Assembly (NCBI GenBank): GCA_003134785.1
Contig: PLCN01000011.1
Location: forward strand, 1 to 64,000
From: Spartobacteria bacterium
GTDB taxonomy: Bacteria > Verrucomicrobiota > Verrucomicrobiia > Chthoniobacterales > UBA10450
Length of the DNA stretch: 64,000 bases
Direction of reading: 5' to 3'
The notes beneath the pieces are model-generated. The model saw nothing but the letters and a program-made list of their open reading frames with translations, ran no database searches and had not been told where the DNA came from. Made by a program: the position numbers and the translations under genes. Shown here piece after piece: positions 14,434-31,300 of this stretch (position 1 is the first letter of the stretch; the number at the start of each line of letters is the position of its first letter).

Positions 14434-14494
14434 TTAGTTCAGCGCGAAAACTTCTACGACCGCTATGTCCGTCGTTCCATTCACGCCGCGGACC
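14434..14494 (-). pseudogene. Displaced clade A tail fragment downstream of the 14527 gene
   Basis: Read on the minus strand this stretch encodes VRGVNGTTDIAVVEVFALN and a stop, the last 20 or so codons of a clade A module. It lies after the stop codon of the 14527-18501 gene, separated from it only by a hairpin. It has no start and looks like the former 3' end of the gene, left behind when a new end was acquired. Confidence 0.7.
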
Positions 14495-14497
14495 GCT

Positions 14498-14525
14498 GTA
14501 GAGGGCTTGTGTCAAGCGCCTCTAC
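14498..14525. repeat. Single-arm GTAGAGG..CCTCTAC palindrome
   Basis: gtagagggcttgtgtcaagc followed by gcctctac is an imperfect palindrome directly after the stop codon of the gene at 14527. It is a shortened copy, with one base missing, of the larger nested palindrome at 18767-18827 and 27579-27639. It could act as a terminator hairpin. Confidence 0.65.
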
Positions 14526-14526
14526 A

Positions 14527-17500
14527 TTATTGCAGCGCGAAGACTTCGACGACAGCTACACCCGTCGTGTCGTTCACGCCGCGGACGATGGCGGTATACT
14601 GCGCGCCACCGGCCGGTAACGTCGCGATGATGGCCGACTCGAAGTCGTTGGTAGGCGGAATGGTGCTGTCGATGATGGCTTGCTTGTTCGGGCTATCAAT
14701 CCAGTTATCGTTCATGTCTATTAACGCGCCATTCCCGTCGCGCAACTCCAGGATGGGATCGGCCAGGTTCCCCGGCACGCTCAACGATGGACCTAGCGCT
14801 TCTACGATTACCTTCTGCGGTGCCTGGCCAACCACGATCGTGCCGGCGATCAAGACGTCGTCGCCCGTTTGCACCAGGCCGCGGGTCGAGATGTTCGCCA
14901 GCTTCGAATCGACCGAGCGATCCAGATCGTAAGCTTGCACGACACCGATACCCGTGCCGTTATTCGCGCCACGAACGATCGCCGTATAAGCCGAGCTATT
15001 AGCCGGCAGAGTCGCCACGATGGCCGATTCGAGGTCGTTGGTCGGGGCAACGCCGCTGTCAATGATCGCCTGCTTGTTCGCGCTATCTCCCCAGTTGTCA
15101 TTCGAGTCGAGCAGGGTGTCGGCTTGATAAAGTTCCAGGGTTGGATCGGCCAGTTTGTCCGCCAAAGGTAACGAGGGCCCTATGGCGAGGACGATAATCT
15201 TTTTCGGCTGCGTCCCCGTGACGATGAAGCCACCTATCAGAACGTTATCGCCTGTCTCCACCCGGAGACGTGTCGAAATATTAGCAAGCGTGGTTGGGTT
15301 AGGTATGGGGGTGGCCGTAGCTGTTGGTGTAGGTGTAGGTGTAGGTGTGGGTGAAGCTGCCGGAGTTGGTGTAGGTGTCGGCGATGGAAACGGCCCGGTG
15401 GATTCAAAAGCGCCTATGTCAGTGCCATCTCCACCGTTCGCGTTGGGAATGGTAGGCGCGTCGATCGTCCGCGCAAAGCTTCCTCCCCGTTGATCAACCC
15501 CGAGCTCGACACCGAAGGCCTTCCCCTGATCCAGCGCAGGGCTGTCAGCCAGCAGAGCAAACGTGTTAGTGGGGCCGCCATTATTTTGCAGTACTCCTAG
15601 CTTGGCGTCGATGGGCGCCGCTGTGGTACCGACCTGGTCGGCGGGAGGGTTAAAGCCCGTGCTGGAGTCCCCGATACCAATCAAGTTGTAGCCCCCGGAG
15701 CTAAAGGCCCCATTCACGTCCACGCCGCCGCCGTGATCGCCGCTATTATTAGCGCTGATAGTATTCCGGACGGTGCTCGTTCCGCTGACAGCAGATAATC
15801 CGCCATTACCCGTTCCGCTGCTGCCGCCGCTAAACTTGTTACTACCTGCGCCGCCTGCCCCACCCAAGCCGGTGTTCCCGCTAAGTGTCGCAGCGGTTAT
15901 GGTCATCGTGCCCATGTTAATTACTGCTCCGGTGGCGCTGCCGCCGTTGCCGCCGAACTGCCCATCGCCACCCGCGCCGGCGGTCGCGCCGTTGCCGCTG
16001 AAAGTCGAGTTGTTAATCGTCAAGGTTGCGCCCGTGCCGTTGAACACCGCTCCGCCCTGAGCGTCGCCGCCTTTGCCGCCGCGGACGTTGCCGTCCTTCG
16101 TACCGCTGCTATCGGCACCCCGCCCGCCCTGAGCGCCGTTGTTGCTTAAGGTGCAACGGTTCAACGTCAGCACACCACCGTTAAGAATTGCGCCACCCTG
16201 GGCTGTCGCGCCGTCGCCGGACGCGGTAATGGCATCACCGGCTTGTGCGCTGTTGAGAAGGAAGGCACAGTCGTTAAAGGTCAGCACCGTATTAAGAGCG
16301 TTAAAGATACCCGCGCCACCCGCGGAGGTGCCGGAACCGGGCGACTGAAATCCATCCCGAATCGTTAGGCCAGAAACTATGCTGGTGCCCCCGGTGAAGC
16401 TAAACACGCGGAAGACCTGTCCCTCAGCGCTGCCGCTGACCGCCAGGACGCGCGCGCCCGGCCCGACAATCGTGGTGGAGTCCGTGACACTTAGAGGACC
16501 AAGCGTGCCTCCCAGCGTAATGGTCCCAGTGACGTTGTTAGCGAACGTGATGGTGTTCGCGCCACTCAATTGGTTCGCCCTCAGGATGGCTTCCCGCAGG
16601 GTGCAATCAACCACGCTGCAAACATCTGGGGTATGATCGCTCGTCGTGTTAACTACCAGCGTAGGGCCAGGCTGGGTGAAATCGTTATTCTCATAGGCGC
16701 CGATGTCCGCCAGGGACTTACGTGGCACTCCGCGCTGGTCGGTCGGGAGAGCTCTCGCGCCATCGGCTGTTGCGTAGGCAGAGCTAGTCGTAGCAATAGC
16801 CATCGTTGGCGTCTCTCCAGGCTGGTTAAGAGTGAGAGCTGCGAGATGGGGATTATTTGATGTTGCTACGCCGTTGATCGCGCCCGTGCTCGCATTGGTT
16901 TCAATGAGGTTGCCGCTATTGTTGTTCTGCGCAACACTACCGCCATTGACGGAGAATAATTGTCCGTTGGGCGAGCCTGCTTTGTTGTTCGCCAGGATGC
17001 TGTTCAACAGGGTCAAGGTGGCGGTGGCTCCGTCGCCCACGATCGCTACGTCCACAATCCCAGTTCCATTCGGGTCGGAGCTATCGCTCACCGTGATGTG
17101 GGTCAGGTTGATTGTGCCGTTGCGCGAAAAGATGGCGTTGCCCTGGCCGTCACCGTTGTCAAAGCCGGCGCCCCCGTAGGCGCTGTTGCCGACGAAGGTG
17201 CAATTGAAGAGGCTGAGCGTGCCGCTATCGTTGAAGATGGCACCGCCGAGGCCGGCTCCGCCTCCGCCCGTAGTTGTGTTGGCCTTGCCGCCGAAGGGGC
17301 CACCAGTCCCGGGGTTGTCGTCGCTTCCGGGATCTGCACCGCCGCCGCCGCCGAAACCTCCGTCGCCACCATCGCTGCTGGTGATGTTGCCTTCACCGCC
17401 ACTGGCGCCTCCTCCTCCCCCAAAGCCTCCGTTACCGCCGTCGCTCCCAGCTGCGGCATTACCTGAGTAGCCGCCGGCGCCACCACCACCACCGCCGTAG

Positions 17501-18501
17501 TTACCTTTACCCCCGTTTCCCGGTGACTGACAATCTCCTGGGATGCATCCAAAAGCTGCACTGCCGCCGCCACCGCCGCCACCCCCTTCGCAAGAACCAT
17601 CGTGACCGTTATCTGCGGGTGATCCTCCCGTGCCGCCGCACCTGAAGCCAGCATCGGGCGTCCCGCCGCTGGTTAAAGTTCCGCCGCCGCCACCGCCAAA
17701 AAAATTGTTAGAAGTCCCGGCGCCGCCATTGCCCAATGAACCGCCACCACCGCCGCCATTTTTGTTGCCTGGCAGGGCTCCATTGCCCGACAAACCGCCA
17801 GCACCACCACCCTTGCCGGCGCCGCTATTACCCCCAAACGCGAAGTTGCCTTGGAATGTGCTGTTCACCAGCGTGAGCTCGCCGTCCCTGAGGTAGATCG
17901 CGCCGCCCGCGCCGAGGCCGCCGCCACCGCCACTTGCGCCGTCACCGCCCCTGCTCTGGAAGTTCTTGAGGTAAACATTGTTAATCGTCAGTTCACCCGT
18001 GCCCGAGACCACCCGACCCGGATCGATCTCGCTAAGATCAACCGTGGCAGTGCCCACGGCGAAGGCGCGGAAGTTCTGGTTGGGCGTTCCCACCACCGGC
18101 GACCCGTTGGCTTTTCCCACCAACTGCGATCCGTTGGCTTCAATCGTGATATTAGAAAAGATGAGCGGCGTCGCCGTAGGGCCTAACGAATTGAATTGAT
18201 CCACCGCCGGCCCGTTCAATTGGAAGACCGCTCCCTGGGGCAAAACGATGATGTCATCTCCACTGCCCTTATTGCAACCGGTGACGATGAAGTTGCTCGG
18301 GTCTGCTGGATCAATGGCGATGTTATCGTCGTAGTTGGCCGAGAAGATTGCTTCCTGCAAAGAGCAAGTGTTGTCACCATGAACTCCCGGGTCGGTAGTG
18401 GTGACGACGATAGTGGCGGCGGATACTTGGTGAAGGCCGAGGCCGAATTGGGCAGCAATTAACGCAAGTAACAGCGGGCCAATCAGACGGCGATTATTCA
18501 T
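14527..18501 (-). CDS. Glycine-rich beta-helix (CSLREA) exported protein with clade A module
   Basis: The 1324-residue product starts at the ATG at 18501, seven bases after AAGG; a GTG six bases upstream is also in frame. A signal peptide (LIGPLLLALIAAQFGLGL) leads to a CSLREA-type motif (CSLQEAIFSAN) and a beta-helix whose middle is extraordinarily glycine-rich, coded at about 17200-17960, with runs such as GGGGGGGG and repeated GNGGFGGGGGASGG units. A second CSLREA motif (CTLREAILRAN) opens a further beta-helix with more Gly-rich turns. The choice-of-anchor Q ending (NGGPTNTFALLADSPALDQG...DIGAFEST), a Pro-Thr linker (15300-15375) and the clade A module (ending VVEVFALQ) complete it. The Gly-rich region resembles adhesin or PGRS-like low-complexity sequence; its role is unknown. 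Confidence 0.87.
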   Translation of the reverse strand: MNNRRLIGPLLLALIAAQFGLGLHQVSAATIVVTTTDPGVHGDNTCSLQEAIFSANYDDNIAIDPADPSNFIVTGCNKGSGDDIIVLPQGAVFQLNGPAVDQFNSLGPTATPLIFSNITIEANGSQLVGKANGSPVVGTPNQNFRAFAVGTATVDLSEIDPGRVVSGTGELTINNVYLKNFQSRGGDGASGGGGGLGAGGAIYLRDGELTLVNSTFQGNFAFGGNSGAGKGGGAGGLSGNGALPGNKNGGGGGGSLGNGGAGTSNNFFGGGGGGTLTSGGTPDAGFRCGGTGGSPADNGHDGSCEGGGGGGGGSAAFGCIPGDCQSPGNGGKGNYGGGGGGAGGYSGNAAAGSDGGNGGFGGGGGASGGEGNITSSDGGDGGFGGGGGADPGSDDNPGTGGPFGGKANTTTGGGGAGLGGAIFNDSGTLSLFNCTFVGNSAYGGAGFDNGDGQGNAIFSRNGTINLTHITVSDSSDPNGTGIVDVAIVGDGATATLTLLNSILANNKAGSPNGQLFSVNGGSVAQNNNSGNLIETNASTGAINGVATSNNPHLAALTLNQPGETPTMAIATTSSAYATADGARALPTDQRGVPRKSLADIGAYENNDFTQPGPTLVVNTTSDHTPDVCSVVDCTLREAILRANQLSGANTITFANNVTGTITLGGTLGPLSVTDSTTIVGPGARVLAVSGSAEGQVFRVFSFTGGTSIVSGLTIRDGFQSPGSGTSAGGAGIFNALNTVLTFNDCAFLLNSAQAGDAITASGDGATAQGGAILNGGVLTLNRCTLSNNGAQGGRGADSSGTKDGNVRGGKGGDAQGGAVFNGTGATLTINNSTFSGNGATAGAGGDGQFGGNGGSATGAVINMGTMTITAATLSGNTGLGGAGGAGSNKFSGGSSGTGNGGLSAVSGTSTVRNTISANNSGDHGGGVDVNGAFSSGGYNLIGIGDSSTGFNPPADQVGTTAAPIDAKLGVLQNNGGPTNTFALLADSPALDQGKAFGVELGVDQRGGSFARTIDAPTIPNANGGDGTDIGAFESTGPFPSPTPTPTPAASPTPTPTPTPTATATPIPNPTTLANISTRLRVETGDNVLIGGFIVTGTQPKKIIVLAIGPSLPLADKLADPTLELYQADTLLDSNDNWGDSANKQAIIDSGVAPTNDLESAIVATLPANSSAYTAIVRGANNGTGIGVVQAYDLDRSVDSKLANISTRGLVQTGDDVLIAGTIVVGQAPQKVIVEALGPSLSVPGNLADPILELRDGNGALIDMNDNWIDSPNKQAIIDSTIPPTNDFESAIIATLPAGGAQYTAIVRGVNDTTGVAVVEVFALQ

Positions 18502-18708
18502 ACCCACACCTTAACGCGAAGCTTGTGATTGTCGATTCAGCGCGACTGACTGCCACCGGCGCAGCCTCCGCGCTGGGCCGCAGAACCGATTCCGGCGAGA
18601 AGCCGGCTACTCCGCGCTGCTTTAGAAGCGAAATGCTGATGAGAACGTTGTTATCAAAAAGATCCAGGCAAGACAAGTGCGATTTTCACGGCCGGAAAGG
18701 CGATTAAT

Positions 18709-18763
18709 TCAGGCGAAAAATTCGACGACCGCTGCACCGGTAGTTCCGTTCACGCCGCGGACC
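18709..18763 (-). pseudogene. Displaced clade A tail fragment downstream of the 18829 gene
   Basis: The minus strand encodes VRGVNGTTGAAVVEFFA and a stop, a slightly degraded module end. It lies after the stop codon of the 18829-23505 gene, beyond the nested palindrome. The arrangement is the same as at 14434-14525 and 27515-27639. Most of the remaining 18502-18828 spacer (about 18502-18708) shows no feature I recognise. Confidence 0.7.
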
Positions 18764-18766
18764 GCT

Positions 18767-18827
18767 GTAGAGGCGCTTGTGTCAAGCGCCTAACCGAACA
18801 CCAGGCGCTTGGCACAAGCGCCTCTAC
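18767..18827. repeat. Nested 25-bp inverted repeat (GTAGAGGCGCTTGTG family)
   Basis: Two 25-base arms, gtagaggcgcttgtgtcaag+cgcct and its near-perfect inverted copy, flank the spacer aaccgaacacc with one mismatch. Each arm is itself palindromic (GGCGCTT/AAGCGCC), so the element can fold as one long or two short hairpins. It begins one base after the stop codon of the 18829 gene on the minus strand. Nearly the same element is at 27579-27639. Confidence 0.8.
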
Positions 18828-18828
18828 A

Positions 18829-21800
18829 TTATTGCAGCGCGAAGACTTCGACGACAGCTACGCCGGTCGTTCCATTCACGCCGCGCACAATGGCGGTATA
18901 CTGCGCACCACCGGCCGGCAGGGTCGCAATGATAGCCGATTCGGAGTCGTTGCCCGGTGGAATGGTGCTGTCGATGATCGCCTGCTTGTTCGGGCTATCG
19001 ACCCAGTTATCGTTCGCGTCGAGGAGAGTTCCGTTTCCGTCTCGTAACTCCAGCGTAGGATCGCCCAGCGCGCCAGGCACGGGCAGGGAGGGACCTAAGG
19101 CTTCCACGATCACCTTCTGTGGCGCTTGACCCACCACGATCGTCCCGGCAATCAAAACGTTGTCCCCGGTCTGGACCAGCCCGCGCGTAGAAATGTTAGC
19201 CAGCTTCGAGTCAGTGGACGTGTCCAGGTCGTATGCTTCTACTACTCCAATCCCAGTCCCGTTGTTTACCCCGCGCACGATCGCGGTGTAACCCGAATTG
19301 TTAGCCGGCAGTGTCGCGATGATGGCCGATTCCAGGTCGTTAGTAGGTGCAATCGTGCTATCAATGATCGCCTGCTTGTTCGGCGAGTCCACCCAGTTGT
19401 CGTTCGAATCAACCAGCGCGCCCGTTGAATCATGCAGCTCCAGGATCGGATCGGCCAGGTCATCCGCAAAAGGCAAGGAAGGCCCGATCGCGCGGATCAT
19501 TACTTTCTTGGGCTGAGTGCCGGTAACGATGAAACCGCCGATCAGCGCGTTGTCGCCCGTCTCGACGCGAAGGCGCGTCGAAATATTAGCCAATGTAGTA
19601 GGTGTTGGCGGCACGGGACTCACGACGACCGATTCATTCGGGTCGCCACAAGCGGTCGTTACCTCACTGTTATTCGCATCTCCGCTATAGCTCGCGACCC
19701 AGCAATAGGTGCCCGGCGTCGTCACGGTAAAGCTACCGGAGGAGTAGCTAGTTGCGCCTGTAACAGAAACGGTCACGGTGACAACAGGCGAGCCGCCGCA
19801 GCTCGAATCATTCGGTCCATAAAGGCTAAACGTGATCGTTCCCGTTGGCGCACTTCCACCAGCCAACGTCGCGGTGTCCGAGATGCTTCCGCCGCTATTC
19901 ACTCCCGCGGACGCCTGCGCCGTAAGAGTCGGAGCCGGCAAGGCGAAGACCAGATACCGCGCGTCACTCGGGATGCCATTGGTAAAGACGGTCACCAGAG
20001 CCGGGCCGGAAGGAAAGCCAATCACGGGGATCGAAGTAAAGGCTGTGGCCGACCAGCCAGCGATCGGGTCCACCGGAAGAAATGCGACCTGGCTGCTCTC
20101 GAGACCGCGGAGTTGGACAATCGGGTAATTGCTGGAGGAATCCTGGGAGTTTCCGCCGGAAGCTTGCGAGATTCCTTGGAAACGCGAGCCGGTCAGCACA
20201 AGGCTGCTGCCGGACGACAGTGTTGAAGTGGCCGTGGCAATCTGCGGCTGCCAGTCGGGCCTGATAAACCCGAGCCCAATATCGTACAGTTCCGCGCTCG
20301 CCAGAGGGAGGCCGCCAGCGCTTTGTCCTCCTGCGACGAGCACCTTGCCGCTGGGCAGCAACGTCGCCGTGTGCAGCCGGCGTGCGGTGTTGAGGCTGCC
20401 TGTCGCCGTCCAGGTGCCGCTCGCCGGATCGTACAGTTCCGCGCCCGCGAAAACGCTGTTGCCGCTATTAATTCCTCCTGCGACGAGCACCTTGCCGTTG
20501 GGCAGCAATGTCGCCGTGTGATTATCGCGTGCGGTGGCGAGGCCGCCCGTGGTACTCCAGTTCCCGCTCGCCGGATCATACAGTTCCGCGCTCGCCAGAG
20601 TGCCATTGGTGTCGTTAACTCCTCCTGCGACGAGCACCTTGCCGTTGGGGAGCAACGTCGCTGTGTGCAAATAGCGTGCGGCGCCGAGGCTGCCGGTCGC
20701 CGTCCAGGTCCCGCTCGCTGGATCGTACAGTTCCGCGCTCGCGAGAGAGACGCCGCCGTTAACTCCTCCTGCGACGAGCACCTTGCCGTTGGGGAGCAAC
20801 GTCGCTGTGTGCAAATAGCGTGCGGCACCGAGGCTGCCGGTCGCCGTCCAGGTCCCGCTCGCTGGATCGTACACTTCCGCACTCGCGAGATAGCCGCTAC
20901 TGTTAGCTCCTCCTGCCACAAGCACCTTGCCGTTGGGCAGCAACGTCGCCGTGTGCCCAAAGCGTGCGGTGGCGAGGGTGCCAGTCACAGCCCAGGTCCC
21001 GCTGGCCGGATCGTACACTTCCGCACTCGCGAGATAGCCGCTGCTGTTAGCTCCTCCTGCCACGAGCACCTTGCCGTTGGGCAGCAACGTCGCCGTGTGC
21101 CCAAAGCGTGCGGTGGCGAGGCTGCCGGTCACCGACCAGGTCCCGCTGGCCGGATCGTACAGCTCCGCGCTCGCGAGAACGCTGGTGGTGTTATAACCTC
21201 CAGCAACGAGCACCTTGCCGTTGGGCAGCAACGTCGCCGTGTGACTCTCGCGTGCGGCACCAAGGCTGCCTGTCGCCGTCCAGCTCCCGCTGGCCGGATC
21301 GTACAGTTCCGCGCTCGCGAGATTACCTCCTGCAACGAGCACCGTGCCGTTGGGCAGAACCGTCGATGTGTAACTAACGCGTGCGGCACCGAGGCTGCCG
21401 GTCGCCGTCCATTTCCCGTTCGCCGGATCGTACACTTCCGCGCTCGCCAAAGAGATGCCGTTAAACCCTCCTGCCACGAGCACCTTGCCGTTGGGCAGCA
21501 ACGTCGCCGTGTGATTATCGCGTGCGGCACCGAGGCTGCCGGTCGCACTCCACGTCCCATTCGCCGGATTGTACACTTCCGCGCTCGCGAGAGTGCCGCT
21601 GGTGTCGTTAACTCCTCCTGCGGCGAGCACCTTGCCGTTGGGCAGCAACGTCGCCGTGTAATTAACGCGTGCGGTACCGAGGCTGCCAGTCGCCGTCCAG
21701 CTCCCGCTCGCTGGATCGTACAGTTCCGCGCTCGTGAGAGAGACGCCGCTGTGATTTCCTCCTGCCACAAGCACCTTGCCGTTGGGCAGCAACGTCGCCG

Positions 21801-23505
21801 TGTGTTGATTGCGTGCGGTGGCAAGGCTGCCGGTCGCCGTCCAGGTCCCGTTCGCCGGATCGTACACTTCCGCGCTCGCGAGATAGCCGCTGCCGTTATT
21901 TCCCCCTGCCACGAGGACCTTGCCGTTGGGCAGCAACGTCGCTGTGTGACTAACGCGTGCGGCACCGAGGCTGCCGGTCGCCGTCCAGGTCCCGCTCGCC
22001 GGATCGTACATTTCCGCGCTCGCGAGATAGCCGCTGGTGCCAGTTCCTCCTGCGATGAGCACTTTGCCACTGGGCAGCAACGTCGCCGTGTGACTAGCGC
22101 GTGCGGTGGCGAGGCTGCCGCTTGCCGTCCAGGTCCCGGTCGCCGGATCGTACACTTCCGCGCTCGCGAGAGCGCCACTGCTGCTACTTCCTCCTGTGAC
22201 AAGCACCTTGCCGTTGGGCAGCAGCGTCGCCGTGTGAAATTCCCGGGCGGTGGCGAGGCTGCCCGTGTTGCCAAACGTAAACGGCCCACCCTGCACTTCA
22301 AACGCGCCGATGTCGCTGCCGTCGCCGCCACTGGCGTTGGGTATGGCCGGATTATCAACCGGGCGGCGGAAGCCACGTTGATCGGTGTTAGAACCGCTCG
22401 AGTTACCTGCATCGATGGCTGGGCTGCCGGAAAGCAGGCCTTGGGTGAAGGTGGGCCCGCCGTTATCCTGCAAAGGGCCTAGCGTCGGATCGACATTGAG
22501 CTGGTTGCCGGTAGTCGTGCCGGTGATGGTCGTGCCAGCGGTATTGCCGATCAGGTTGTAGCCTTGTGAGGCGAGCGTGCCATCGAAATCAGGGCTACCG
22601 GCAGCAGTCGTGTTCTTGGCAATGATGGTATTCTTTGCATTCACCGTGGCGCTGGTGGTGTTGAAAATACCGCCGCCGGAGCCACTAGCGGTATTTCCGG
22701 AGACGGTGGAGTTGATAAGCGAGAGAGTGCTCCCACTGTTTACCGCATCGTTTTCAATACCCCCGCCCGAGCCGCCGGCTGCGGTATTGCCGGAGATGGT
22801 GGAGCTGGTCACGTTCACTGTGCCCTCACCGAAGTTTGCAATGCCGCCGCCGGAGCTGCTGGAGATATTGCCGGAGACGGTGGAGTTCGTGATGCTCACA
22901 GTCCCACTCCCACCGTTTTCAATGCCGCCGCCAGGCCCACTGGCGGTATTGCCGGAGATGGTGGAGTTGGTCACGTTCACTGTTGTGCCGTCGTTGTTGA
23001 AAATGCCGCCGCCGTAACTGCTGGCGGTATTGCCGGAGAGGGTGCAGCCCACGATCGTCAACGTGCAACCGCTATTAATAGCGCCACCGACATGGACGGT
23101 GCCGTTGGGGCTTCCGTTCGAAATCGTCAGGCCCGAGATGGTGACGTTGATGTTCACGGTATTTCCGTTGCTATCTGTTTTGGCGATTCTAAAGATGCGG
23201 AAACTTGCAGTGCCGCTGGCCGCGCTGCGCTGCACGCTCAGCAAATTAGCGCCCGGGCCGCTAATCGTGAGATCCTTGTCGATCATCAACTGATCGCTTG
23301 TCAGGGTAATGGCCGAGGTGCCCGGCGGAAGCGAGAAGTTGATCGTGTCACCGGAATTGGCATCACTGATTGCCTGGCGCAACGTCCCCGCGCCGCTATC
23401 GGCGGCGCTGGTCACCGTGATCGTCGCCGCAAGGAGCGGCATAGCGCTAAAAAGAAGCGCCAGCCCAGGCGCGATCCAGTGAAGCATCCGAAATCTTCCT
23501 GACAT
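18829..23505 (-). CDS. Beta-helix + kelch fusion exported protein with clade A module
   Basis: The 1558-residue product starts at the ATG at 23505 behind an ideal GGGAGG-TAATT spacing, followed by a signal peptide (MLHWIAPGLALLFSAMPLLA). The first part is a beta-helix ending in the choice-of-anchor Q sequence (TDQRGFRRPVDN...SDIGAFEVQ). It is joined directly, at about 22285, to GGPFTFGNTGSLATAREF, the same sequence that begins the mature kelch proteins at 23704 and 27641. Fourteen kelch-like units (HTATLLPNGKVLVAGG) follow, enough for two seven-bladed propellers. Next come an early-set-like domain (GISQASGGNSQDSSSNYPIV), an Ig-like domain (GSISDTATLAGGSAPTG), no long Pro-Thr linker, and the clade A module ending VVEVFALQ. 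The gene is best read as a passenger-to-passenger fusion. Confidence 0.88.
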   Translation of the reverse strand: MSGRFRMLHWIAPGLALLFSAMPLLAATITVTSAADSGAGTLRQAISDANSGDTINFSLPPGTSAITLTSDQLMIDKDLTISGPGANLLSVQRSAASGTASFRIFRIAKTDSNGNTVNINVTISGLTISNGSPNGTVHVGGAINSGCTLTIVGCTLSGNTASSYGGGIFNNDGTTVNVTNSTISGNTASGPGGGIENGGSGTVSITNSTVSGNISSSSGGGIANFGEGTVNVTSSTISGNTAAGGSGGGIENDAVNSGSTLSLINSTVSGNTASGSGGGIFNTTSATVNAKNTIIAKNTTAAGSPDFDGTLASQGYNLIGNTAGTTITGTTTGNQLNVDPTLGPLQDNGGPTFTQGLLSGSPAIDAGNSSGSNTDQRGFRRPVDNPAIPNASGGDGSDIGAFEVQGGPFTFGNTGSLATAREFHTATLLPNGKVLVTGGSSSSGALASAEVYDPATGTWTASGSLATARASHTATLLPSGKVLIAGGTGTSGYLASAEMYDPASGTWTATGSLGAARVSHTATLLPNGKVLVAGGNNGSGYLASAEVYDPANGTWTATGSLATARNQHTATLLPNGKVLVAGGNHSGVSLTSAELYDPASGSWTATGSLGTARVNYTATLLPNGKVLAAGGVNDTSGTLASAEVYNPANGTWSATGSLGAARDNHTATLLPNGKVLVAGGFNGISLASAEVYDPANGKWTATGSLGAARVSYTSTVLPNGTVLVAGGNLASAELYDPASGSWTATGSLGAARESHTATLLPNGKVLVAGGYNTTSVLASAELYDPASGTWSVTGSLATARFGHTATLLPNGKVLVAGGANSSGYLASAEVYDPASGTWAVTGTLATARFGHTATLLPNGKVLVAGGANSSGYLASAEVYDPASGTWTATGSLGAARYLHTATLLPNGKVLVAGGVNGGVSLASAELYDPASGTWTATGSLGAARYLHTATLLPNGKVLVAGGVNDTNGTLASAELYDPASGNWSTTGGLATARDNHTATLLPNGKVLVAGGINSGNSVFAGAELYDPASGTWTATGSLNTARRLHTATLLPSGKVLVAGGQSAGGLPLASAELYDIGLGFIRPDWQPQIATATSTLSSGSSLVLTGSRFQGISQASGGNSQDSSSNYPIVQLRGLESSQVAFLPVDPIAGWSATAFTSIPVIGFPSGPALVTVFTNGIPSDARYLVFALPAPTLTAQASAGVNSGGSISDTATLAGGSAPTGTITFSLYGPNDSSCGGSPVVTVTVSVTGATSYSSGSFTVTTPGTYCWVASYSGDANNSEVTTACGDPNESVVVSPVPPTPTTLANISTRLRVETGDNALIGGFIVTGTQPKKVMIRAIGPSLPFADDLADPILELHDSTGALVDSNDNWVDSPNKQAIIDSTIAPTNDLESAIIATLPANNSGYTAIVRGVNNGTGIGVVEAYDLDTSTDSKLANISTRGLVQTGDNVLIAGTIVVGQAPQKVIVEALGPSLPVPGALGDPTLELRDGNGTLLDANDNWVDSPNKQAIIDSTIPPGNDSESAIIATLPAGGAQYTAIVRGVNGTTGVAVVEVFALQ

Positions 23506-23580
23506 AATTACCTCCCATGTTCCTTCCTTTCCGCGTGACTTGGTTTGACGGAATCCATAACCCCTTAAAGCGATGCCGCT

Positions 23581-23713
23581 TTCCCTATCCAAAGGGATTG
23601 CCGACGCGCCGCTGCACGAAATCGCGATCTAACCAAGATTGCAGGCAGGCGTAAATGTTCTTTTCCCATGATCGCGTCCAGGCAATGCCGTGCCGATTCA
23701 AGTTCAGTTCAGC
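23581..23713. repeat. About 130-bp spacer repeat, copy 1
   Basis: This spacer is nearly identical to 27393-27526 (both contain caaagggatt, cacgaaatcgcgatctaacc and gtaaatgttcttttcccatg). It spans the upstream region of one surface gene and the stop codon of the next, so it marks the junction of duplicated gene units. Confidence 0.75.
23627..23655 (-). promoter_or_regulatory. Candidate promoter, copy 2 (for the 18829-23505 gene)
   Basis: On the minus strand TTTACG (23655-23650) and TTAGAT (23632-23627) are 17 bases apart, about 120 bases ahead of the ATG at 23505. The surrounding spacer is conserved at 27393-27526 with the same spacing. Confidence 0.45.
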
Positions 23714-26700
23714 GCGAAGACTTCCACGACGGCTATGCCGCTAGTTCCATTAACGCCGCGCACAATGGCGGTGTATTGCGCGCCATCGGCCGGCAGGGTC
23801 GCGAGAATGGCTGATTCGAAGTCGTTGCCCGGCGGAATGGTGCTGTCAATGATGGCCTGCTTGTTCGGGCTATCGACCCAGTTATCATTCATGTCTACCA
23901 AGCCGCCATTCCCGTCGCGCAGCTCCAGGATAGGATCTTCCAGCTTCCCCGGCACGCTCAACGATGGACCTAGCGCTTCCACGATTACCTTCTGCGATCC
24001 CTGGCCGACAACGATTGTGCCGGCAATCAAAACGTTATCGCCGGTTTGAACCAGACCGCGTGTGGAAATGTTAGCCAGCTTCGAATCAACTGACGTATCC
24101 AGGTCGTATGCTTCCACTACTCCGATGCCTGTCCCATTATTTACTCCGCGGACGATCGCGGTGTAACCTGAGCCATTCGCCGGCAGTGTCGCGATGATGG
24201 CGGACTCCAAGGGGTCACTCGGTGCAATGGTGCTATCGATGATCGCCTGCTTGTTCGGCGAGTCCTGCCAGTTGTCGTTGGAATCAAGCAGCGCGCCGGA
24301 AGAGTCATGCAGCTCAAGAATGGGATCGGCCAGTTTATCGGCAAAGGGCAGGGAAGGACCTATCGCGCGGATCATTACTTTCTTAGGCTGTGTCCCGGTA
24401 ACGATGAAGCCGCCAATAAGCGCGTTGTCGCCCGTTTCGACGCGAAGTCGCGTTGAAATGTTAGCCAGGGTGGTGAGTGGTGGCGTTCCAACAGGAGTAG
24501 GAGTTGGAGTGGGTGTTGTCGAAGGAATAGGAGTAGGTGTTGGCGCCGGGTTAACTACCACCGTCTCGCTCGCGTCATCACATGCAGTCGTTACCGCACT
24601 GTTGTTGGCGTCGCCGCTATAACGCGCGACCCAGCGATACGTTCCCGGCGTTGTCACGGTAAAGCTACCGGATGAGTAGCTGGTGGCGCCCGTAACGGGA
24701 ACCGTTGAGCTGACAACAGGCGTACCGTTGCAGCTCGAATCATCCGGCCCATAAAGGCTAAATGTGATTGTCCCTGTCGGAGCATTTCCGCCCGATAACA
24801 TCGCTGTGTCGGAGACGCTTCCTCCGCTATTCACTCCCGCGGAGGCCTGCGTTGTGAAAGTAAGCACGGGGAATCCAACCAACAGATAGCTGGCGTCGCT
24901 CGGGATGCCATTGGTAAAGACGGTTACCAAGGCCGGACCAAGCGGAAAGCCGGTTATAGGTGTCGAAGTAAAGGAGGTATTCGACCATCCGGCCGTTGAG
25001 TCGACGGGGAGAAAGGTGACTTGGCTGCTGTCAATACTGCGCAACTGCACGATCGGATAGTTACTCGATGAGTCCTGGGTGTTGCCGCCCGAGGCTTGCG
25101 AGATGCCTTGGAAGCGAGTGCCAGTGAGGGCGAGGCTGCCGGCCGGCGAAAGAGTGGAAGGCGCTGTCGCGATCTGAGGTTGCCAGGCGCTACTGAAACT
25201 AAGGCCCACATCGTACAGTTCCGCGCTCGCCAGATAGTTGTAACTGTTACTGGTGACATTATTACCTCCTGCAACAAGCACCGTGCCGTAGGGCAGCAAC
25301 GTCGCGCTGTGCACATAGCGGGCGGTGGCAAGACTGCCGGTCGCCGACCAGGTCCCGCTTGCTGGATCGTACAGTTCCGCGCTCGCGAGAGCATTAAAGC
25401 TGCTGTCCTCTCCTCCTGCGACGAGCACCTTGCCGTTGGGCAGCAACGTCGCAGTGTGATTAGCGCGGGCGGCGCCTAAGTTGCCGTTCGGGGTCCAGGT
25501 CGCGTTCGCCGGATTGTACACTTCCACGCTCGTGGCAGCGCTGGTGCTGTTATAACCACCTGCGACAAGCACCGTGCCGTAGGGCAGCAACGTCGCGCTG
25601 TGCACATAGCGGGCGGTGGCAAGACTGCCGGTCGCCGACCAGGTCCCGCTGGCCGGATCGTACACTTCCGCGCTCGCGAGATAGCCGCTGCCGTTAGCTC
25701 CTCCTGCGACGAGCACCTTGCCGTTGGGCAGCAACGTCGCCGTGTGACTAGCGCGTGCGGTGGCGAGGCTGCTAGTCGCCGTCCAGGTCCCGCTCGCCGG
25801 ATCGTACACTTCCGCGCTCGCGAGAGCGCCACTGCTGCTACTTCCTCCTGTGACAAGCACCTTGCCGTTGGGCAGCAACGTCGCGGTGTGGCCGTAGCGC
25901 GCGGCGCCCAAGCTACCGGTCACACTCCAAGTCCCGCTCGCCGGATCGTAGAGTTCCGCGCTAGCGGCAGCGCCTCCACCAAATCCTCCTGCGACAAGCA
26001 CCTTGCCGTTGGGCAGCAACGTCGCCGTATGACCATAGCGTGCGGTAGCAAGACTGCCGGTCGCCGTCCAGGTCCCGAGCGCTGGGTCGTAGAGTTCCGT
26101 GCTCGCGACGTCAAGGCCCTCGTTATTCCCTCCAGCAACGAGCACCTCGCCGTTGGGCAGTAACGTCGCCGTATGACCCAAGCGGCCGGTAGCAAGACTG
26201 CCGGTCGCCGTCCACGTCCCGTTCGCCGGATCGTACAGTTCCGCGCTCGCTACCCCGGCGGGGTTACCTCCTCCCGCTATGAGCACGTTGCCGCCAGGCA
26301 GCAAAGTCGCCGTGTGGTAATAGCGTGCGGTGACGAGGCTACCGGTATCCGTCCAGGTCCCGAGCGTTGGATCGTAGAGTTCCGCGCGCGCGAGATAGGC
26401 AGTGCCATTAAAACCGCCTGCGACGAGCACCTTGCCATTAGGCAGTAACGTCGCCGTGTGAATAAAGCGGCCGATGTCGAGACTGCCGGTGGCAGCCCAA
26501 GTCCCGTTCGCCGGATTGTACAGTTCCGCGCTAGCGAGAGTGCCGCCGTTATAACCTCCTGCAACAAGTACCTTGCCGTTGGGCAGCAACGTCGCGGTGT
26601 GAGAATAGCGGGCGGTGGCAAGACTGCCGGTCGCCGTCCAGGTCCCGTTCGCCGGATTGTACAGTTCCGCGCTCGCGAAAAAGCTGGTGCCGTTATAACC

Positions 26701-27366
26701 ACCGGCGACAAGCACCTTGCCGTTGGGCAGCAACGTCGCGGTGTGACCATAGCGTGCGGTGGCGAGACTGCCGGTCGCACTCCAGGTCCCGTTCGCCGGA
26801 TCGTAGAGTTCCGCGCTCGCGACAGTGCTGGTGCCGTTATAACCACCGGCGACGAGCACCTTGCCGTTGGGCAGCAACGTCGCGGTGTGAAAATAGCGGA
26901 CGGTGGCAAGACTGCCGGTGGCCGACCAGATCCCGCTGGCTGGATCGTAAAGTTCCGCCGTCGCGAGAGCGCTGCCGTTGAAGGTGTGCGCTCCTCCTGT
27001 AACAAGCACCTTGCCATTAGGCAGCAAAGTCGCGGTGTGCAAATAGCGGGCGGTGCCCAAACTGCCGGTCGCCGTCCAAGCCCCGCTCGCCGGATCGTAC
27101 ATTTCCGCGCTAGCGAGAGTGCCGCCGTTTAAACCTCCTGCGACAAGCACGTTGCCATTGGGCAGCAACGTCGCTGTATGACCCTCGCGTGCGGTGGCGA
27201 GACTGCCAGTGTTGCTAAAAGTAAACGGAAACTGAGCCCCTTGAACAGCCGGCGTCGCGCCCAAGAAGGCGGCGGCAATGTAGAGAAGGAAGATAAACCG
27301 AGCTGACCAGGGCGCGGTCCTGGCCGATTTGCTGCCCGGGAATTCCCGGTTCGAATTTTCATTCAT
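23704..27366 (-). CDS. Fourteen-repeat kelch exported protein with clade A module
   Basis: The 1220-residue product begins at the ATG at 27366, with a hydrophobic signal segment at about residues 25-43 (FIFLLYIAAAFLGATPAVQG). A GTG at 27429 is also in frame. Fourteen kelch-like units of about 50 residues follow (LATAR..HTATLLPNGKVLVAGG...ASAELYDPASGTW), consistent with two seven-bladed propellers. Then an early-set-like domain, an Ig-like domain (GSVSDTAMLSGGNAPTG), a Pro-Thr linker (about 24485-24545) and the clade A module ending VVEVFALN. The repeats are very similar at DNA level, so copy number could change by recombination. A seven-codon leader overlaps the start. Kelch folds usually bind proteins or sugars; no ligand can be named. 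Confidence 0.88.
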   Translation of the reverse strand: MNENSNREFPGSKSARTAPWSARFIFLLYIAAAFLGATPAVQGAQFPFTFSNTGSLATAREGHTATLLPNGNVLVAGGLNGGTLASAEMYDPASGAWTATGSLGTARYLHTATLLPNGKVLVTGGAHTFNGSALATAELYDPASGIWSATGSLATVRYFHTATLLPNGKVLVAGGYNGTSTVASAELYDPANGTWSATGSLATARYGHTATLLPNGKVLVAGGYNGTSFFASAELYNPANGTWTATGSLATARYSHTATLLPNGKVLVAGGYNGGTLASAELYNPANGTWAATGSLDIGRFIHTATLLPNGKVLVAGGFNGTAYLARAELYDPTLGTWTDTGSLVTARYYHTATLLPGGNVLIAGGGNPAGVASAELYDPANGTWTATGSLATGRLGHTATLLPNGEVLVAGGNNEGLDVASTELYDPALGTWTATGSLATARYGHTATLLPNGKVLVAGGFGGGAAASAELYDPASGTWSVTGSLGAARYGHTATLLPNGKVLVTGGSSSSGALASAEVYDPASGTWTATSSLATARASHTATLLPNGKVLVAGGANGSGYLASAEVYDPASGTWSATGSLATARYVHSATLLPYGTVLVAGGYNSTSAATSVEVYNPANATWTPNGNLGAARANHTATLLPNGKVLVAGGEDSSFNALASAELYDPASGTWSATGSLATARYVHSATLLPYGTVLVAGGNNVTSNSYNYLASAELYDVGLSFSSAWQPQIATAPSTLSPAGSLALTGTRFQGISQASGGNTQDSSSNYPIVQLRSIDSSQVTFLPVDSTAGWSNTSFTSTPITGFPLGPALVTVFTNGIPSDASYLLVGFPVLTFTTQASAGVNSGGSVSDTAMLSGGNAPTGTITFSLYGPDDSSCNGTPVVSSTVPVTGATSYSSGSFTVTTPGTYRWVARYSGDANNSAVTTACDDASETVVVNPAPTPTPIPSTTPTPTPTPVGTPPLTTLANISTRLRVETGDNALIGGFIVTGTQPKKVMIRAIGPSLPFADKLADPILELHDSSGALLDSNDNWQDSPNKQAIIDSTIAPSDPLESAIIATLPANGSGYTAIVRGVNNGTGIGVVEAYDLDTSVDSKLANISTRGLVQTGDNVLIAGTIVVGQGSQKVIVEALGPSLSVPGKLEDPILELRDGNGGLVDMNDNWVDSPNKQAIIDSTIPPGNDFESAILATLPADGAQYTAIVRGVNGTSGIAVVEVFALN

Positions 27367-27386
27367 GAAATTGCAATTCCGTTCAT
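27363..27386 (-). CDS. Seven-codon leader reading frame overlapping the kelch gene start
   Basis: An ATG at 27386 behind AAAGGGAGAG opens MNGIAIS and a TGA that overlaps the kelch gene's ATG as ATGA. The kelch ATG itself has no good ribosome site, so translation could depend on coupling. A similar arrangement exists at 4813-4896. It may be coincidence. Confidence 0.3.
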   Translation of the reverse strand: MNGIAIS

Positions 27387-27392
27387 GCCACT

Positions 27393-27526
27393 CTCCCTTT
27401 CCAAAGGGATTCCGGAGACCGTGCTGCACGAAATCGCGATCTAACCAAGATTGCAGGCAGGTGTAAATGTTCTTTTCCCATGATCGCGTCCAGGCAATGC
27501 CGTTCGATTCAAGTTCAGTTCAGCGC
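27393..27526. repeat. About 130-bp spacer repeat, copy 2
   Basis: This is the near-identical partner of 23581-23713 and contains the same candidate promoter and the same tail-end sequence (agttcagttcagcgc). Confidence 0.75.
27439..27467 (-). promoter_or_regulatory. Candidate promoter, copy 3 (for the 23704-27366 gene)
   Basis: TTTACA (27467-27462) and TTAGAT (27444-27439) on the minus strand have a 17-base spacer and lie about 75 bases ahead of the ATG at 27366. The -35 box differs from TTGACA at one position; the -10 box is a poor match. Confidence 0.45.
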
Positions 27527-27575
27527 AAAGACTTCGACGACGGCTACACCGGTCGTCCCATTCACGCCGCGGACC
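27515..27575 (-). pseudogene. Displaced clade A tail fragment downstream of the 27641 gene
   Basis: The minus strand encodes VRGVNGTTGVAVVEVFALN and a stop, an intact module end without its gene. It lies beyond the palindrome that follows the stop codon of the 27641-31300 gene. Confidence 0.7.
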
Positions 27576-27578
27576 GCT

Positions 27579-27639
27579 GCAGAGGCGCTTGGGTCAAGCG
27601 CCTAACCGAACACCAGGCGCTTGGCACAAGCTCCTCTAC
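27579..27639. repeat. Nested inverted repeat, second full copy
   Basis: gcagaggcgcttgggtcaag+cgcct, the spacer aaccgaacacc and an inverted arm ending ctcctctac. It differs from 18767-18827 at a few positions and also starts one base after a stop codon. Confidence 0.78.
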
Positions 27640-27640
27640 A

Positions 27641-30600
27641 TTATTGCAGCGCAAAGACTTCCACAACGGCTATGCCGGTCGTCCCATTCACGCCGCGGAC
27701 GATGGCGGTATACTGCGCGCCATTGGCCGGCAAGGTCGCCACGATAGCTGATTCGAAGTCGTTGCTCGGCGGAATAGTGCTGTCGATGATCGCCTGCTTG
27801 TTCGGGCTATCGCCCCAGTTATCATTCATGTCTACCAAGCCGCCATTCCCGTCGCGCAGCTCCAGGATAGGATCTTCCAGCTTCCCCGGCACGCTCAACG
27901 ATGGACCTAGCGCTTCCACGATCACCTTCTGCGGCGTCTGGCCAGCTACGATGGTTCCCGCGATTAGGACGTCATCGCCCGTTTGCACCAGGCCGCGCGT
28001 CGAGATATTCGCCAGCTTCGAGTCAACCGAGCGATCCAGATCGTAAACTTGCACGACACCTATCCCGGTGGTGTTGTTCGCGCCGCGAACGATCGCGGTA
28101 TATTGGGAGTTATTCGCCGGCAGAGTAGCGATGATGGCGGACTCGAGGTCGTTGGCTGGCGCAAAACCGCTATCGATAATCGCCTGCTTGTTGGCCGATT
28201 GCTGCCAGTCATCATTCGAGTCGAGCAGGGTGCTGCCTTGATAAAGTTCCAAGGTCGGATTAGCCAAAGCGTCAGCTATTCCGAAACCGGTGAGCGACGG
28301 GCCGATGGCGAGCACGATAACCCTTTTCGGCTGTGTTCCAGTGACGATGAATCCGCCGATCAAGGCGTTATCACCGGTCTCGACGCGCAATCGTGTGGAA
28401 AGATTAGCCAGCGCGGTAGGATTAGGTGGCGGCGTAGGTGTAGGTGTAGGCGTGGGTGTGGGGGTAGGGATAGGGGTAGGAGTCGGTGTTGGCGGCACGG
28501 GACTCACCACGACCGATTCATTCGGGTCGCTACAACTTGTCGTTACCGCACTGTTATTCGCGTCGCCGCTATAGGTTGCCACCCAGCGGTAAGTGCCAGC
28601 GGCAGTTGGGGTGAACGAATTCGAAGTGTAACTACCGTTGCCGGCGGCGCTGTTCGTCGAGGTGAAGACGGCGGCGGCGCCACAGGTTGCGTCCCCCGGC
28701 CCGAATAACGCGAAGGTCATCGTCCCGGTCGGCGTAAAGCCATTGGCAAGTGTCGCAATATCCAAAATGCTGCCGCCCACTGGCGTCGCCCCCGAGGCTT
28801 GGGTCGCGATTGTCGGAGTTGCCTTCGTTACTAGCAGGTATTTCGCGTCGCTCGGGATTCCGTTGGCGAAGACGGTGACCATAGCCGAGCCAAGCGGAAA
28901 GCCGCTGACCGGTATCGAAGTAAAGGCCGAGCTCGACCACCCCGCCGCCGGGTCAACAGGTAGGAAGGTGGTTTTGGTGGTCTCAATATTGCGCAACTGC
29001 ACGACTGGGTAACTGGTCGAAGAATCCTGCGTGTTGCCGCCCGAGGCTGGAGAGATGCCTTGGAAGAGTGAGCCGGTCAGCGCGAGGCTGCCGCCGAGTG
29101 GGAGGGTGGAAGGCGCTGTGGCAATCTGCGGCTGCCAAAGAGAGCGCAGGTATCCCAGCCCCCCTAAGTAATGGTCCACATTCTGCAGATACTGGTCGTT
29201 CGCCCCGCCTGTGACCAACACAATGTCATTGGAAACCAGGGTCGCGGTGTGATTGTGGCGCGCGCCGTTGAGGTTGCCCGCGGACGTCCATTTTCCGCTC
29301 GCCGGATCGTATATTTCCGCACTCGCAAGCGGGCCAGTATTGTTTCCCTGCCCGCATGCTATCAGCACTTTCCCGTTGGGAAGTAGTGTAGCCGCTGTTG
29401 AATCGCGTGCGGCGGCGAGACTCCCCGTTACCGTCCACGTGCCGCTCGCTGGATCGTACAGTTCCGCACTCGCCAGTTGACTGGAGTTGCCGGTGGTTCC
29501 AGACCCTCCTGCGATCAGCACCTTTCCGTTGGACAGCAGCGTCGCCGTGTGGTTTCGGCGCGCGATGTTGAGGTTGTTCGTTGCCGTCCATTTCCCGCTC
29601 GCCGGGTCATACAGTTCCGCGCTCGTGGAAACATTGAAACTGCTGTCATATCCTCCTGCGACCAGGACCTTGCCGTTTGGCAGCAGCGTCGCAGTGTGAG
29701 TCTGGCGCGTGGTGTTGAGGTTGTTTGTTGCCGTCCATTTCCCGCTCGCCGGGTCATACAGTTCCGCGCTCATGGAACTTTGGTGGCTGCTATCCTGTCC
29801 CGCGGCGACGAGCACCTGACCGTTGGTCAGCAATGTCGCCGTGTGATTGGAGCGTGCGGTGTTGAGGTTGCCCGCCGTCGCCATCCATTTCCCACTCGCC
29901 GGGTCGTACAGTTCCGCGCTCGCGGAAACATCGCTAAGTGAATCCACTACTCCCGCTGCGACGAGCACCTGACCGTTGGGCAGCGACGTCGCCGTGTGAC
30001 CATAGCGTGCGGTGTTGAGATTGCCCGTGGCCGTCCATTGCTCTGTCACCGTATCGAAGAGTTCCACGCTCGCCAGAGGGCCGCTGCCGTTCACCCCGCC
30101 TGCTACCAGCACATGGCCATTGGCCAGCATTGTTGCGGTGTGCTCCTCGCGTGGTGTTGCCATCACCGGCGGGCTCCCCCAGCCACCGCTACTCGCGGGA
30201 TCGTACAGCTCGGCGCTGGTTAGATATCTGGCGCTCGGAATCTTTTGGAAATTGTCGAAACCAGCCGTGAAGAGTATGCTGCCAGTAGGCAGCAGGGTGG
30301 CGGTCTCATTAGAACGGGGGGTCACCAGGTTGGCGGTCGCCGTCCAGGTGCCGTTGGCGCCTTGGCCTGGAGTGTAAAGCTCTGCGCTGGCTAAAGAGTT
30401 GGTGCCGTCAGTTCCTCCCGCCACCAGCACCGTCCCATTAGGCAACAATGTCGCCGTGTGACTGTAACGGGAATTGACCGGATTGGGAGTCGTATTCCAA
30501 GTCCCGTTCTTGGGATCGTAGAGCTCCGCGCTTCCCACGGCGCCGCCGTTTTGTCCAACGGCTACGAGCACATTGCCGCTGGAGAGCAACGTCGCGGTGT

Positions 30601-31300
30601 GAAAATAACGGGCGTTGCCGAGGCTCCCGGTAACCGCCCACATCCCGCTCGCCGGATCATAAAGCTCCGCCGTGTTCAAAGTGCCGCTGTTGCCTTGTCC
30701 TCCCGCGACCAACACCCTGCCATCAGAGAGCAGGGTCGCCGTGTGATTATCCCGTGCCGCCATGAGGTTGCCGGTTGCCGTCCAGGTCCCGGTCGCCGGA
30801 TCGTAGAGTTCCGCAGTGCCTTGAAAGCCGTTGGTGGCGTATCCTCCCGCGACCAGCACCTTGCCGTTAGGGAGCAAGGTGGCGGTATGGGCATAGCGTG
30901 CGCTTGCGAGACTCCCGGTCGCTTTCCATTTTCCCGTCGCTGGATCGTAAAGTTCCGCGGTCGTGAGAACCGTATTACTGGCGCCAACTCCTCCAGTGAC
31001 GAGCACCGCGCCGTTGTGCAACATCGTCGCGGTGTGAGCCTCACGCGGAGTTATCAGACTGCCCGTCGCTGTCCAAGTCCCGATCAACGGGTCGTAGAGC
31101 TCCGCGGTGCCCACGATGCCGGGGTTAGCTCCTCCGGCAACCAATACCTTCCCGTTTTGCAGCAAGGTACTCGTGTGAAGAGTGCGTCCCTGCGCCAGAT
31201 TACCTGTGCTGGTGAAAGTAAACGGCGCACCCGTCGCCGTTACGAGAACCCACCAATGGATCGCCGCGAGAATCGAAAGACGAAGGCCGAGCGTTTTCAT
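27641..31300 (-). CDS. Fourteen-repeat kelch exported protein with clade A module
   Basis: The 1219-residue product starts at the ATG at 31300 with a short signal peptide (LRLSILAAIHWWVLVTATGA). The mature end begins PFTFTSTGNLAQGR. Fourteen kelch-like units are more diverged from each other than in the 23704 gene (ETATLLPTGSILFTAG, HTATLVSNDIVLVTGG). An early-set-like domain, an Ig-like domain (GSILDIATLANGFTPTG), a long Pro-Thr linker (about 28425-28495) and the clade A module ending VVEVFALQ follow. Only 24 bases separate it from the upstream delta-60 gene's stop, and no clear ribosome site is present, so it is probably the last gene of an operon 35210 to 27641. In that operon it carries module A while the two genes before it carry module B. 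Confidence 0.88.
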   Translation of the reverse strand: MKTLGLRLSILAAIHWWVLVTATGAPFTFTSTGNLAQGRTLHTSTLLQNGKVLVAGGANPGIVGTAELYDPLIGTWTATGSLITPREAHTATMLHNGAVLVTGGVGASNTVLTTAELYDPATGKWKATGSLASARYAHTATLLPNGKVLVAGGYATNGFQGTAELYDPATGTWTATGNLMAARDNHTATLLSDGRVLVAGGQGNSGTLNTAELYDPASGMWAVTGSLGNARYFHTATLLSSGNVLVAVGQNGGAVGSAELYDPKNGTWNTTPNPVNSRYSHTATLLPNGTVLVAGGTDGTNSLASAELYTPGQGANGTWTATANLVTPRSNETATLLPTGSILFTAGFDNFQKIPSARYLTSAELYDPASSGGWGSPPVMATPREEHTATMLANGHVLVAGGVNGSGPLASVELFDTVTEQWTATGNLNTARYGHTATSLPNGQVLVAAGVVDSLSDVSASAELYDPASGKWMATAGNLNTARSNHTATLLTNGQVLVAAGQDSSHQSSMSAELYDPASGKWTATNNLNTTRQTHTATLLPNGKVLVAGGYDSSFNVSTSAELYDPASGKWTATNNLNIARRNHTATLLSNGKVLIAGGSGTTGNSSQLASAELYDPASGTWTVTGSLAAARDSTAATLLPNGKVLIACGQGNNTGPLASAEIYDPASGKWTSAGNLNGARHNHTATLVSNDIVLVTGGANDQYLQNVDHYLGGLGYLRSLWQPQIATAPSTLPLGGSLALTGSLFQGISPASGGNTQDSSTSYPVVQLRNIETTKTTFLPVDPAAGWSSSAFTSIPVSGFPLGSAMVTVFANGIPSDAKYLLVTKATPTIATQASGATPVGGSILDIATLANGFTPTGTMTFALFGPGDATCGAAAVFTSTNSAAGNGSYTSNSFTPTAAGTYRWVATYSGDANNSAVTTSCSDPNESVVVSPVPPTPTPTPIPTPTPTPTPTPTPPPNPTALANLSTRLRVETGDNALIGGFIVTGTQPKRVIVLAIGPSLTGFGIADALANPTLELYQGSTLLDSNDDWQQSANKQAIIDSGFAPANDLESAIIATLPANNSQYTAIVRGANNTTGIGVVQVYDLDRSVDSKLANISTRGLVQTGDDVLIAGTIVAGQTPQKVIVEALGPSLSVPGKLEDPILELRDGNGGLVDMNDNWGDSPNKQAIIDSTIPPSNDFESAIVATLPANGAQYTAIVRGVNGTTGIAVVEVFALQ

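Follow-up and report, generated by a model that had tools for sequence, protein, structure and literature searches.

The window, a stretch of 64,000 nucleotides from the Spartobacteria bacterium genome (a draft of 25 contigs, 97% complete), carries minus-strand genes for proteins that end in a conserved module. By direct reading, the genes ending at 14527, 18829 and 27641 show the order reported in a preliminary description, i.e., the stop codon, a palindrome, and, after GCG, a second in-register tail that runs from VRG to FALN or FA. Below, the tail that closes the open frame is called live, and the second one is called stranded, or a stub; the palindromes are listed with the repeat class to which we assign them. 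The features are:

14434..14493, minus strand: stranded tail (stub) VRGVNGTTDIAVVEVFALN and stop, behind gene 14527, ending FALN
14497..14526, unstranded: 30-bp REPIN derivative, outer arms retained, inner stem deleted
14527..18507, minus strand: module gene, choice-of-anchor Q passenger and two C-terminal modules of about 125 aa, live tail ending FALQ
18703..18762, minus strand: stranded tail VRGVNGTTGAAVVEFFA and stop, frameshifted, ending FA
18766..18828, unstranded: full-length 63-bp REPIN, two inverted REP hairpins, GTAG at the outer ends
18829..23592, minus strand: module gene, choice-of-anchor Q and Kelch passenger, two modules, live tail ending FALQ
23704..27429, minus strand: paralogue without the insertion, Kelch-type passenger by similarity to 18829, tail ending FALN with TGA stop; empty-site comparison for 27641
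27515..27574, minus strand: stranded tail VRGVNGTTGVAVVEVFALN and TGA stop, 3' flank common to gene 23704
27578..27640, unstranded: full-length 63-bp REPIN, 95% identical to the 18766 copy, its closest
27641..31300, minus strand: module gene, Kelch passenger, two modules, live tail ending FALQ

The palindrome directly abuts the live TAA in all three genes (CAATAA-TGTAGAGG), and the stranded tails, each of 60 nt, begin 3 nt (GCG) past it. Their first codons are exactly GTC CGC GGC (VRG) in each case, so that the claim of a common breakpoint in the old tail was borne out; one junction, CTCTRCA-GCG-GTCCGCGGCGTGAA, is common to the three genes. The palindromes are present at the positions that had been named, although each is 1 nt longer at either end, and the one given as 14498-14525 is not a full copy, having lost the inner stem. 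The live tails all end FALQ-TAA and the stranded ones FALN, FA and FALN, respectively; this contrast holds for the three genes but is no general marker of new and old ends, since genes 2394 and 8928 end FALQ with no palindrome. Outside the window, a fourth, decayed case was found on contig C7 (66887-66949), with a FALQ-TAA remnant, a full palindrome and a frameshifted tail, and it carries the same junction (GCGGCCCGCGGCGTGAA). The 24-letter junction matched with 0 mismatches at four of four sites in this genome, while no site with fewer than 2 mismatches was detected in 82 other genomes of the family; two weak matches elsewhere in the family (2-3 mismatches) were taken as chance. Together with the hairpin z-scores of the palindromes, from -5.7 to -10.3, the exact junction at four sites indicates that the arrangement is not a product of chance.

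The module of about 125 amino acids (ANISTR..TGDNVLIAG..AVVEVFALQ) was observed in the window at 14530-19200 and in at least 150 places in the genome. It met no Pfam or NCBIfam model, and no Pfam family was found in the 14527 protein. The predicted model of the module (pLDDT 82) is a beta-sandwich with weak PDB matches, which included pre-peptidase C-terminal and collagen-binding beta-sandwiches, none of them at E ≤ 0.001.

The 63-nt palindrome consists of two 26-nt arms and an 11-nt spacer, and is predicted to fold into one hairpin with two REP stems (DNA fold z-score -10.3). Its consensus is TGTAGAGGCGCTTGTGCCAAGCGCCT, a spacer of about 11-13 nt, and AGGCGCTTGGCACAAGCGCCTCTACA, and both ends carry TGTAGAGGCGCTT..AAGCGCCT, with GTAG at the feet of the hairpin, in most of the 32 full-length copies that were compared, these being part of the total. 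The arm pattern, with at most one mismatch, gave 42 forward and 42 reverse matches in the Spartobacteria bacterium genome as opposed to 2 and 1 for a control pattern, and full-length copies lay on at least 14 of the 25 contigs, all REPIN counts being lower bounds. Most copies were not at module genes, and the palindrome was also present in relatives across the family, those named here being Spartobacteria and Chthoniobacterales MAGs. An edge of the repeat was near the stop codon of an open frame in 25 of the 32 copies, compared with 15% of random positions, and in about 18 of 32 upon a recount that left out the TAG codons supplied by the repeat itself. The same placement behind stops, and the same supply of TAG stops by the repeat, have been described in a paper on GTAG repeats, and REPIN deletion derivatives that retain the outer arms only are also on record (PMC3116915). 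Because the GTAG feet, the REP-dimer fold and the placement near stops are like those of other REPs, the palindrome that follows the FALQ stops is unremarkable in both type and position. On these sequence features, the palindrome is a REPIN, i.e., an inverted pair of GTAG-tagged REPs, and no special partner of the module genes.

In the family, this repeat class is also associated, as far as gene neighborhoods indicate, with a RAYT-type Y1 (Y1/HUH) transposase, and flanks one RAYT clade in the relatives. All seven examined RAYT genes with 61-77% identity to the C10:28475 RAYT had the palindrome on both sides, and so did one at 58% identity (L247-L253 and L255, the latter gene included); nine more distant genes (52-58%) had no flanking palindrome. 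Relatives with a flanked RAYT were G004, G006, G013, G020, G030, G074, G099 and G100. The RAYT-type Y1 transposase gene of the Spartobacteria bacterium genome itself (C10:28352-28825, L077) had only a short palindrome copy, upstream, and is apparently frameshifted near the N-terminus, as the motif YFVTFNTHQ was read in another frame. The gene is thus a possible pseudogene, in a genome that still holds dozens of REPINs.

It had been proposed that tail and palindrome spread between genes as a unit, by gene conversion or by the element itself. In the latter case, a RAYT-moved REPIN would take along the neighboring 57-60 nt of the coding tail and insert repeatedly at VRG; the breakpoint identical at four sites, the putative cognate RAYT family, and six tail stops in the genome directly followed by TGTAGAGG, two stubs on contig C8 among them, are consistent with such movement. 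However, no tail sequence flanked other REPIN copies, among the copies listed, and a tail attached to the palindrome was found neither outside module genes nor in relatives. The arrangement was absent from the 82 other family genomes, and when module-gene 3' ends of relatives were surveyed, it did not recur at any of 81, two of them having a match resembling a REPIN arm within 150 nt but no stub. A search of 58 genomes with the tail-REPIN-tail stretch returned, outside the Spartobacteria bacterium genome, separate tails or palindromes only, among the matches listed. Moreover, stubs with no REPIN occur, at other breakpoints. We regard movement of tail and palindrome by RAYT as quite improbable, and a self-moving element in these genes as unlikely. 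The part of the proposal that appears to stand is copying as one stretch, for which gene conversion is the better of the two mechanisms, given the junction at four sites, the closest palindromes, the mosaics and the flanks presented below; spread by the element itself was not supported, the palindrome being a scattered REPIN that lies mostly away from module genes.

With a score matrix for the tail, 93 stretches at the 3' ends of module genes in this genome were scanned, which revealed stubs not preceded by a palindrome at C8:2400, C8:6660, C3:6510 and C7:65995. Their breakpoints vary, from positions far ahead of VRG to a few nt before it or about 15 nt past it. At C8:2400, a live FLQ-TAA is followed after about 16 nt by CATTGTGCGCGGC..FALN and a stop, and at C7:65995 three older tails come after the live stop and before the fourth tail, which has the palindrome. 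A congener also has a palindrome-free stub (G004:C31), with a second candidate in L223. In the two C8 stubs, FALN-TAA is followed by TGTAGAGG, after which similarity to the REPIN is lost (8 letters match exactly and about 12 at most can be aligned); judged by its letters, this is likely a truncated REPIN remnant. Since stubs occur with no palindrome and at other breakpoints, the palindrome did not give rise to the duplicated tail, and stub formation is a general process separate from the REPIN. The stretch C7:65396-67019 (L070:4897-6520) holds a live module gene and then four tail remnants in a row, two of them from a different module subfamily and the last with the REPIN; this string looks like serial displacement.

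By analogy, the closest known process to the stranded tails is the displacement described for Rhs C-termini and T6SS orphan immunity arrays, in which strings of displaced 3' remnants have been explained by homology-facilitated illegitimate recombination (PMC5361080). There, too, the new part enters via an anchor of conserved sequence and the old 3' remnant is left downstream, in strings like that of a live tail and four remnants on C7. In contrast to those systems, what is conserved here is the C-terminal module, short stubs of which form the remnants, and no toxin or immunity role is indicated.

Gene 23704 sits between two of the affected genes, ends FALN-TGA and has no palindrome, and its 3' flank matches the flank behind the stranded tail at 27515 (90% over 131 nt). 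This match suggests that the 27641 locus once ended in what is now its stranded tail and that its live end and palindrome were added, unless 23704 lost the insertion by deletion between repeats. Deletion between the flanking direct repeats could indeed explain its lack; direct repeats around a hairpin are prone to deletion, and the loss would restore exactly the FALN-TGA end of 23704. The whole arrangement might then have arisen once, before the tandem Kelch genes duplicated, and have disappeared from 23704 when the tail repeats on both sides of the hairpin recombined, which suits the standing of 18829, 23704 and 27641 as tandem paralogues with 60-73% similarity in the passenger (73% between 18829 and the unaffected 23704, 60% between 18829 and 27641). 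Nevertheless, we consider such vertical descent unlikely: gene 14527, with another passenger and another 3' flank, needs transfer anyway, the 3' flank of 18829 is unlike that of 27641 and 23704, and the C7 copy is on another contig. The passengers differ by kind, with choice-of-anchor Q in 14527 and Kelch in 18829 and 27641, and comparison of the flanks behind the stranded tails at 14434, 18700 and 27515 gave no mutual match. The preliminary description had named a scattered palindrome and one block duplication of whole genes as the outcome that would speak against it; the palindrome is scattered, whereas passenger and 3' flank are not homologous in all three genes, and block duplication is excluded for 14527. 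In the gene at 18829-23592, a choice-of-anchor Q part, reaching to about residue 438, is fused to a Kelch part, and the passenger thus combines both kinds of neighbor.

The account that we think probable is one founder event, after which the tail-REPIN-stub stretch was copied among paralogues by homologous recombination (gene conversion). It is favored by the junction shared at four sites, against the varied breakpoints of stubs in general, and by the closest palindromes, the unrelated 3' flanks and the mosaic modules. Passenger similarity, which places 18829 nearer to the unaffected 23704 than to 27641, also runs counter to the distribution of the palindrome among these genes. The palindromes at 18766 and 27578 were the most similar pair among the 32 full-length copies compared (95%, with an identical 11-nt spacer), and in the same comparison the nearest neighbor of the C7 copy was the one at 18766. 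In the seven closest paralogues, the modules were mosaic over the final 780 nt, with identical runs of up to 62 polymorphic sites, and long identical runs were significant for four pairs (p<0.001, permutation test on 324 polymorphic sites), in a test that treats sites as exchangeable and whose result uneven conservation along the module could inflate. Genes 14527 and 18829 were identical over the final 33 nt ahead of the palindrome (p=0.014), and when tails were split, the proximal 26 nt and the distal 34 nt had different nearest partners. The mosaic runs and the split-tail partners are consistent with transfer tracts running from the live module into the stub, the ends of which rest on few sites in tails of 60 nt. 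Flanks on the recipient side differ among the genes, as expected for conversion in which the recipient flank is kept. With 6-10 differences in 60 positions, as compared with 7-15 for palindrome-free tails, the live tails of the three genes were not clearly more alike, suggesting that the transfers are old or the tracts very short.

At 27641, the live and stranded tails share their first 26 nt exactly, with a variant (GGGACGACC) absent from the other tails compared, an identity that local duplication might also explain. In that case, template switching provoked by a REPIN behind a stop would copy the local tail twice around the hairpin at each locus. This recurrent duplication in place seems very improbable to us, because the TGA stop and the flank of the stranded tail at 27515 recur in 23704 and the live end CTGCAATAATGTAGAGG is common to the three genes, which argues that the live ends are not simply local copies; in addition, the two tails at 18829 have 14 distal differences, and the flanks of the other REPIN copies listed suggest that REPINs behind stops have no duplication next to them.

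Under one founder and subsequent copying, REPINs of the RAYT-associated class would settle mainly just behind stop codons and, independently, module-gene bodies would be displaced by recombination, with short 3' stubs of the old gene staying behind the new stop. In one founder gene, a live tail would have come to be followed by a REPIN and a stub (junction REPIN-GCG-GTCCGCGGC), and gene conversion among paralogues, both tandem and dispersed, would have brought this stretch to further module genes. Of the two exchange points, one would fall within the live module or tail and one within the stub, each recipient retaining its own 3' flank. We infer that copying probably went outward from this single founder, and that conversion, not loss, accounts for the state of gene 23704. 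As for the founder event, the REPIN could have inserted after a stop codon and ahead of a stub already present, C8:2400 resembling such a pre-insertion site, or an incoming module end with the REPIN could have been joined illegitimately to an old tail (one-sided homologous plus illegitimate joining). The stub-side flank of the REPIN, GCGG, is unusual, as most copies have T there, and this may weakly favor a rejoined end in the founder. That REPINs, via RAYT or hairpin-provoked breaks, actively promote 3'-end exchange in this surface-protein family, with repeat and live tail traveling together, appears highly doubtful.

The repeats resemble known GTAG REPs, REPINs and their RAYTs in the GTAG outer ends, the two inverted REP hairpins forming one longer hairpin, the tens of copies, the position behind stop codons, the RAYT flanked by the same palindromes, and the outer-arm-only derivatives (PMC3116915, PMC3733652). 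Unlike known REPINs, three or four copies lie between a live tail and its stranded copy and were seemingly multiplied with paralogous genes. Likewise, the mosaic modules and the long identical runs in otherwise diverged neighbors are as in gene conversion among tandem paralogues, whereas the tract here, unlike the usual one, seems to carry the REPIN and the duplicated tail as passenger heterology. We found no literature report that joins REPs, gene conversion and paralogous tails. The ingredients are known and their combination is unusual; it is a neat event and not a new kind.

Among Verrucomicrobia, O. terrae, outside the present group, had been named as rich in GTAG REPs in one of the papers on these repeats (PMC3116915, PMC3733652), and our analysis documents a REPIN-RAYT class in uncultured, Chthoniobacterales-like soil Verrucomicrobia. 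It suggests that REPINs can multiply passively with paralogous genes, not by transposition, which matters for models of REPIN copy number, and the 3' stubs preserve traces of past recombination in a module family that numbers at least 150 copies in a single genome. A further family of palindromes (TGTAGCGGCGG..CCGCC, GTAGCCGCTTCGC) was observed behind or near module-gene stops (L127, L114, and L070 at about 7100-7450), and is probably another REP class.
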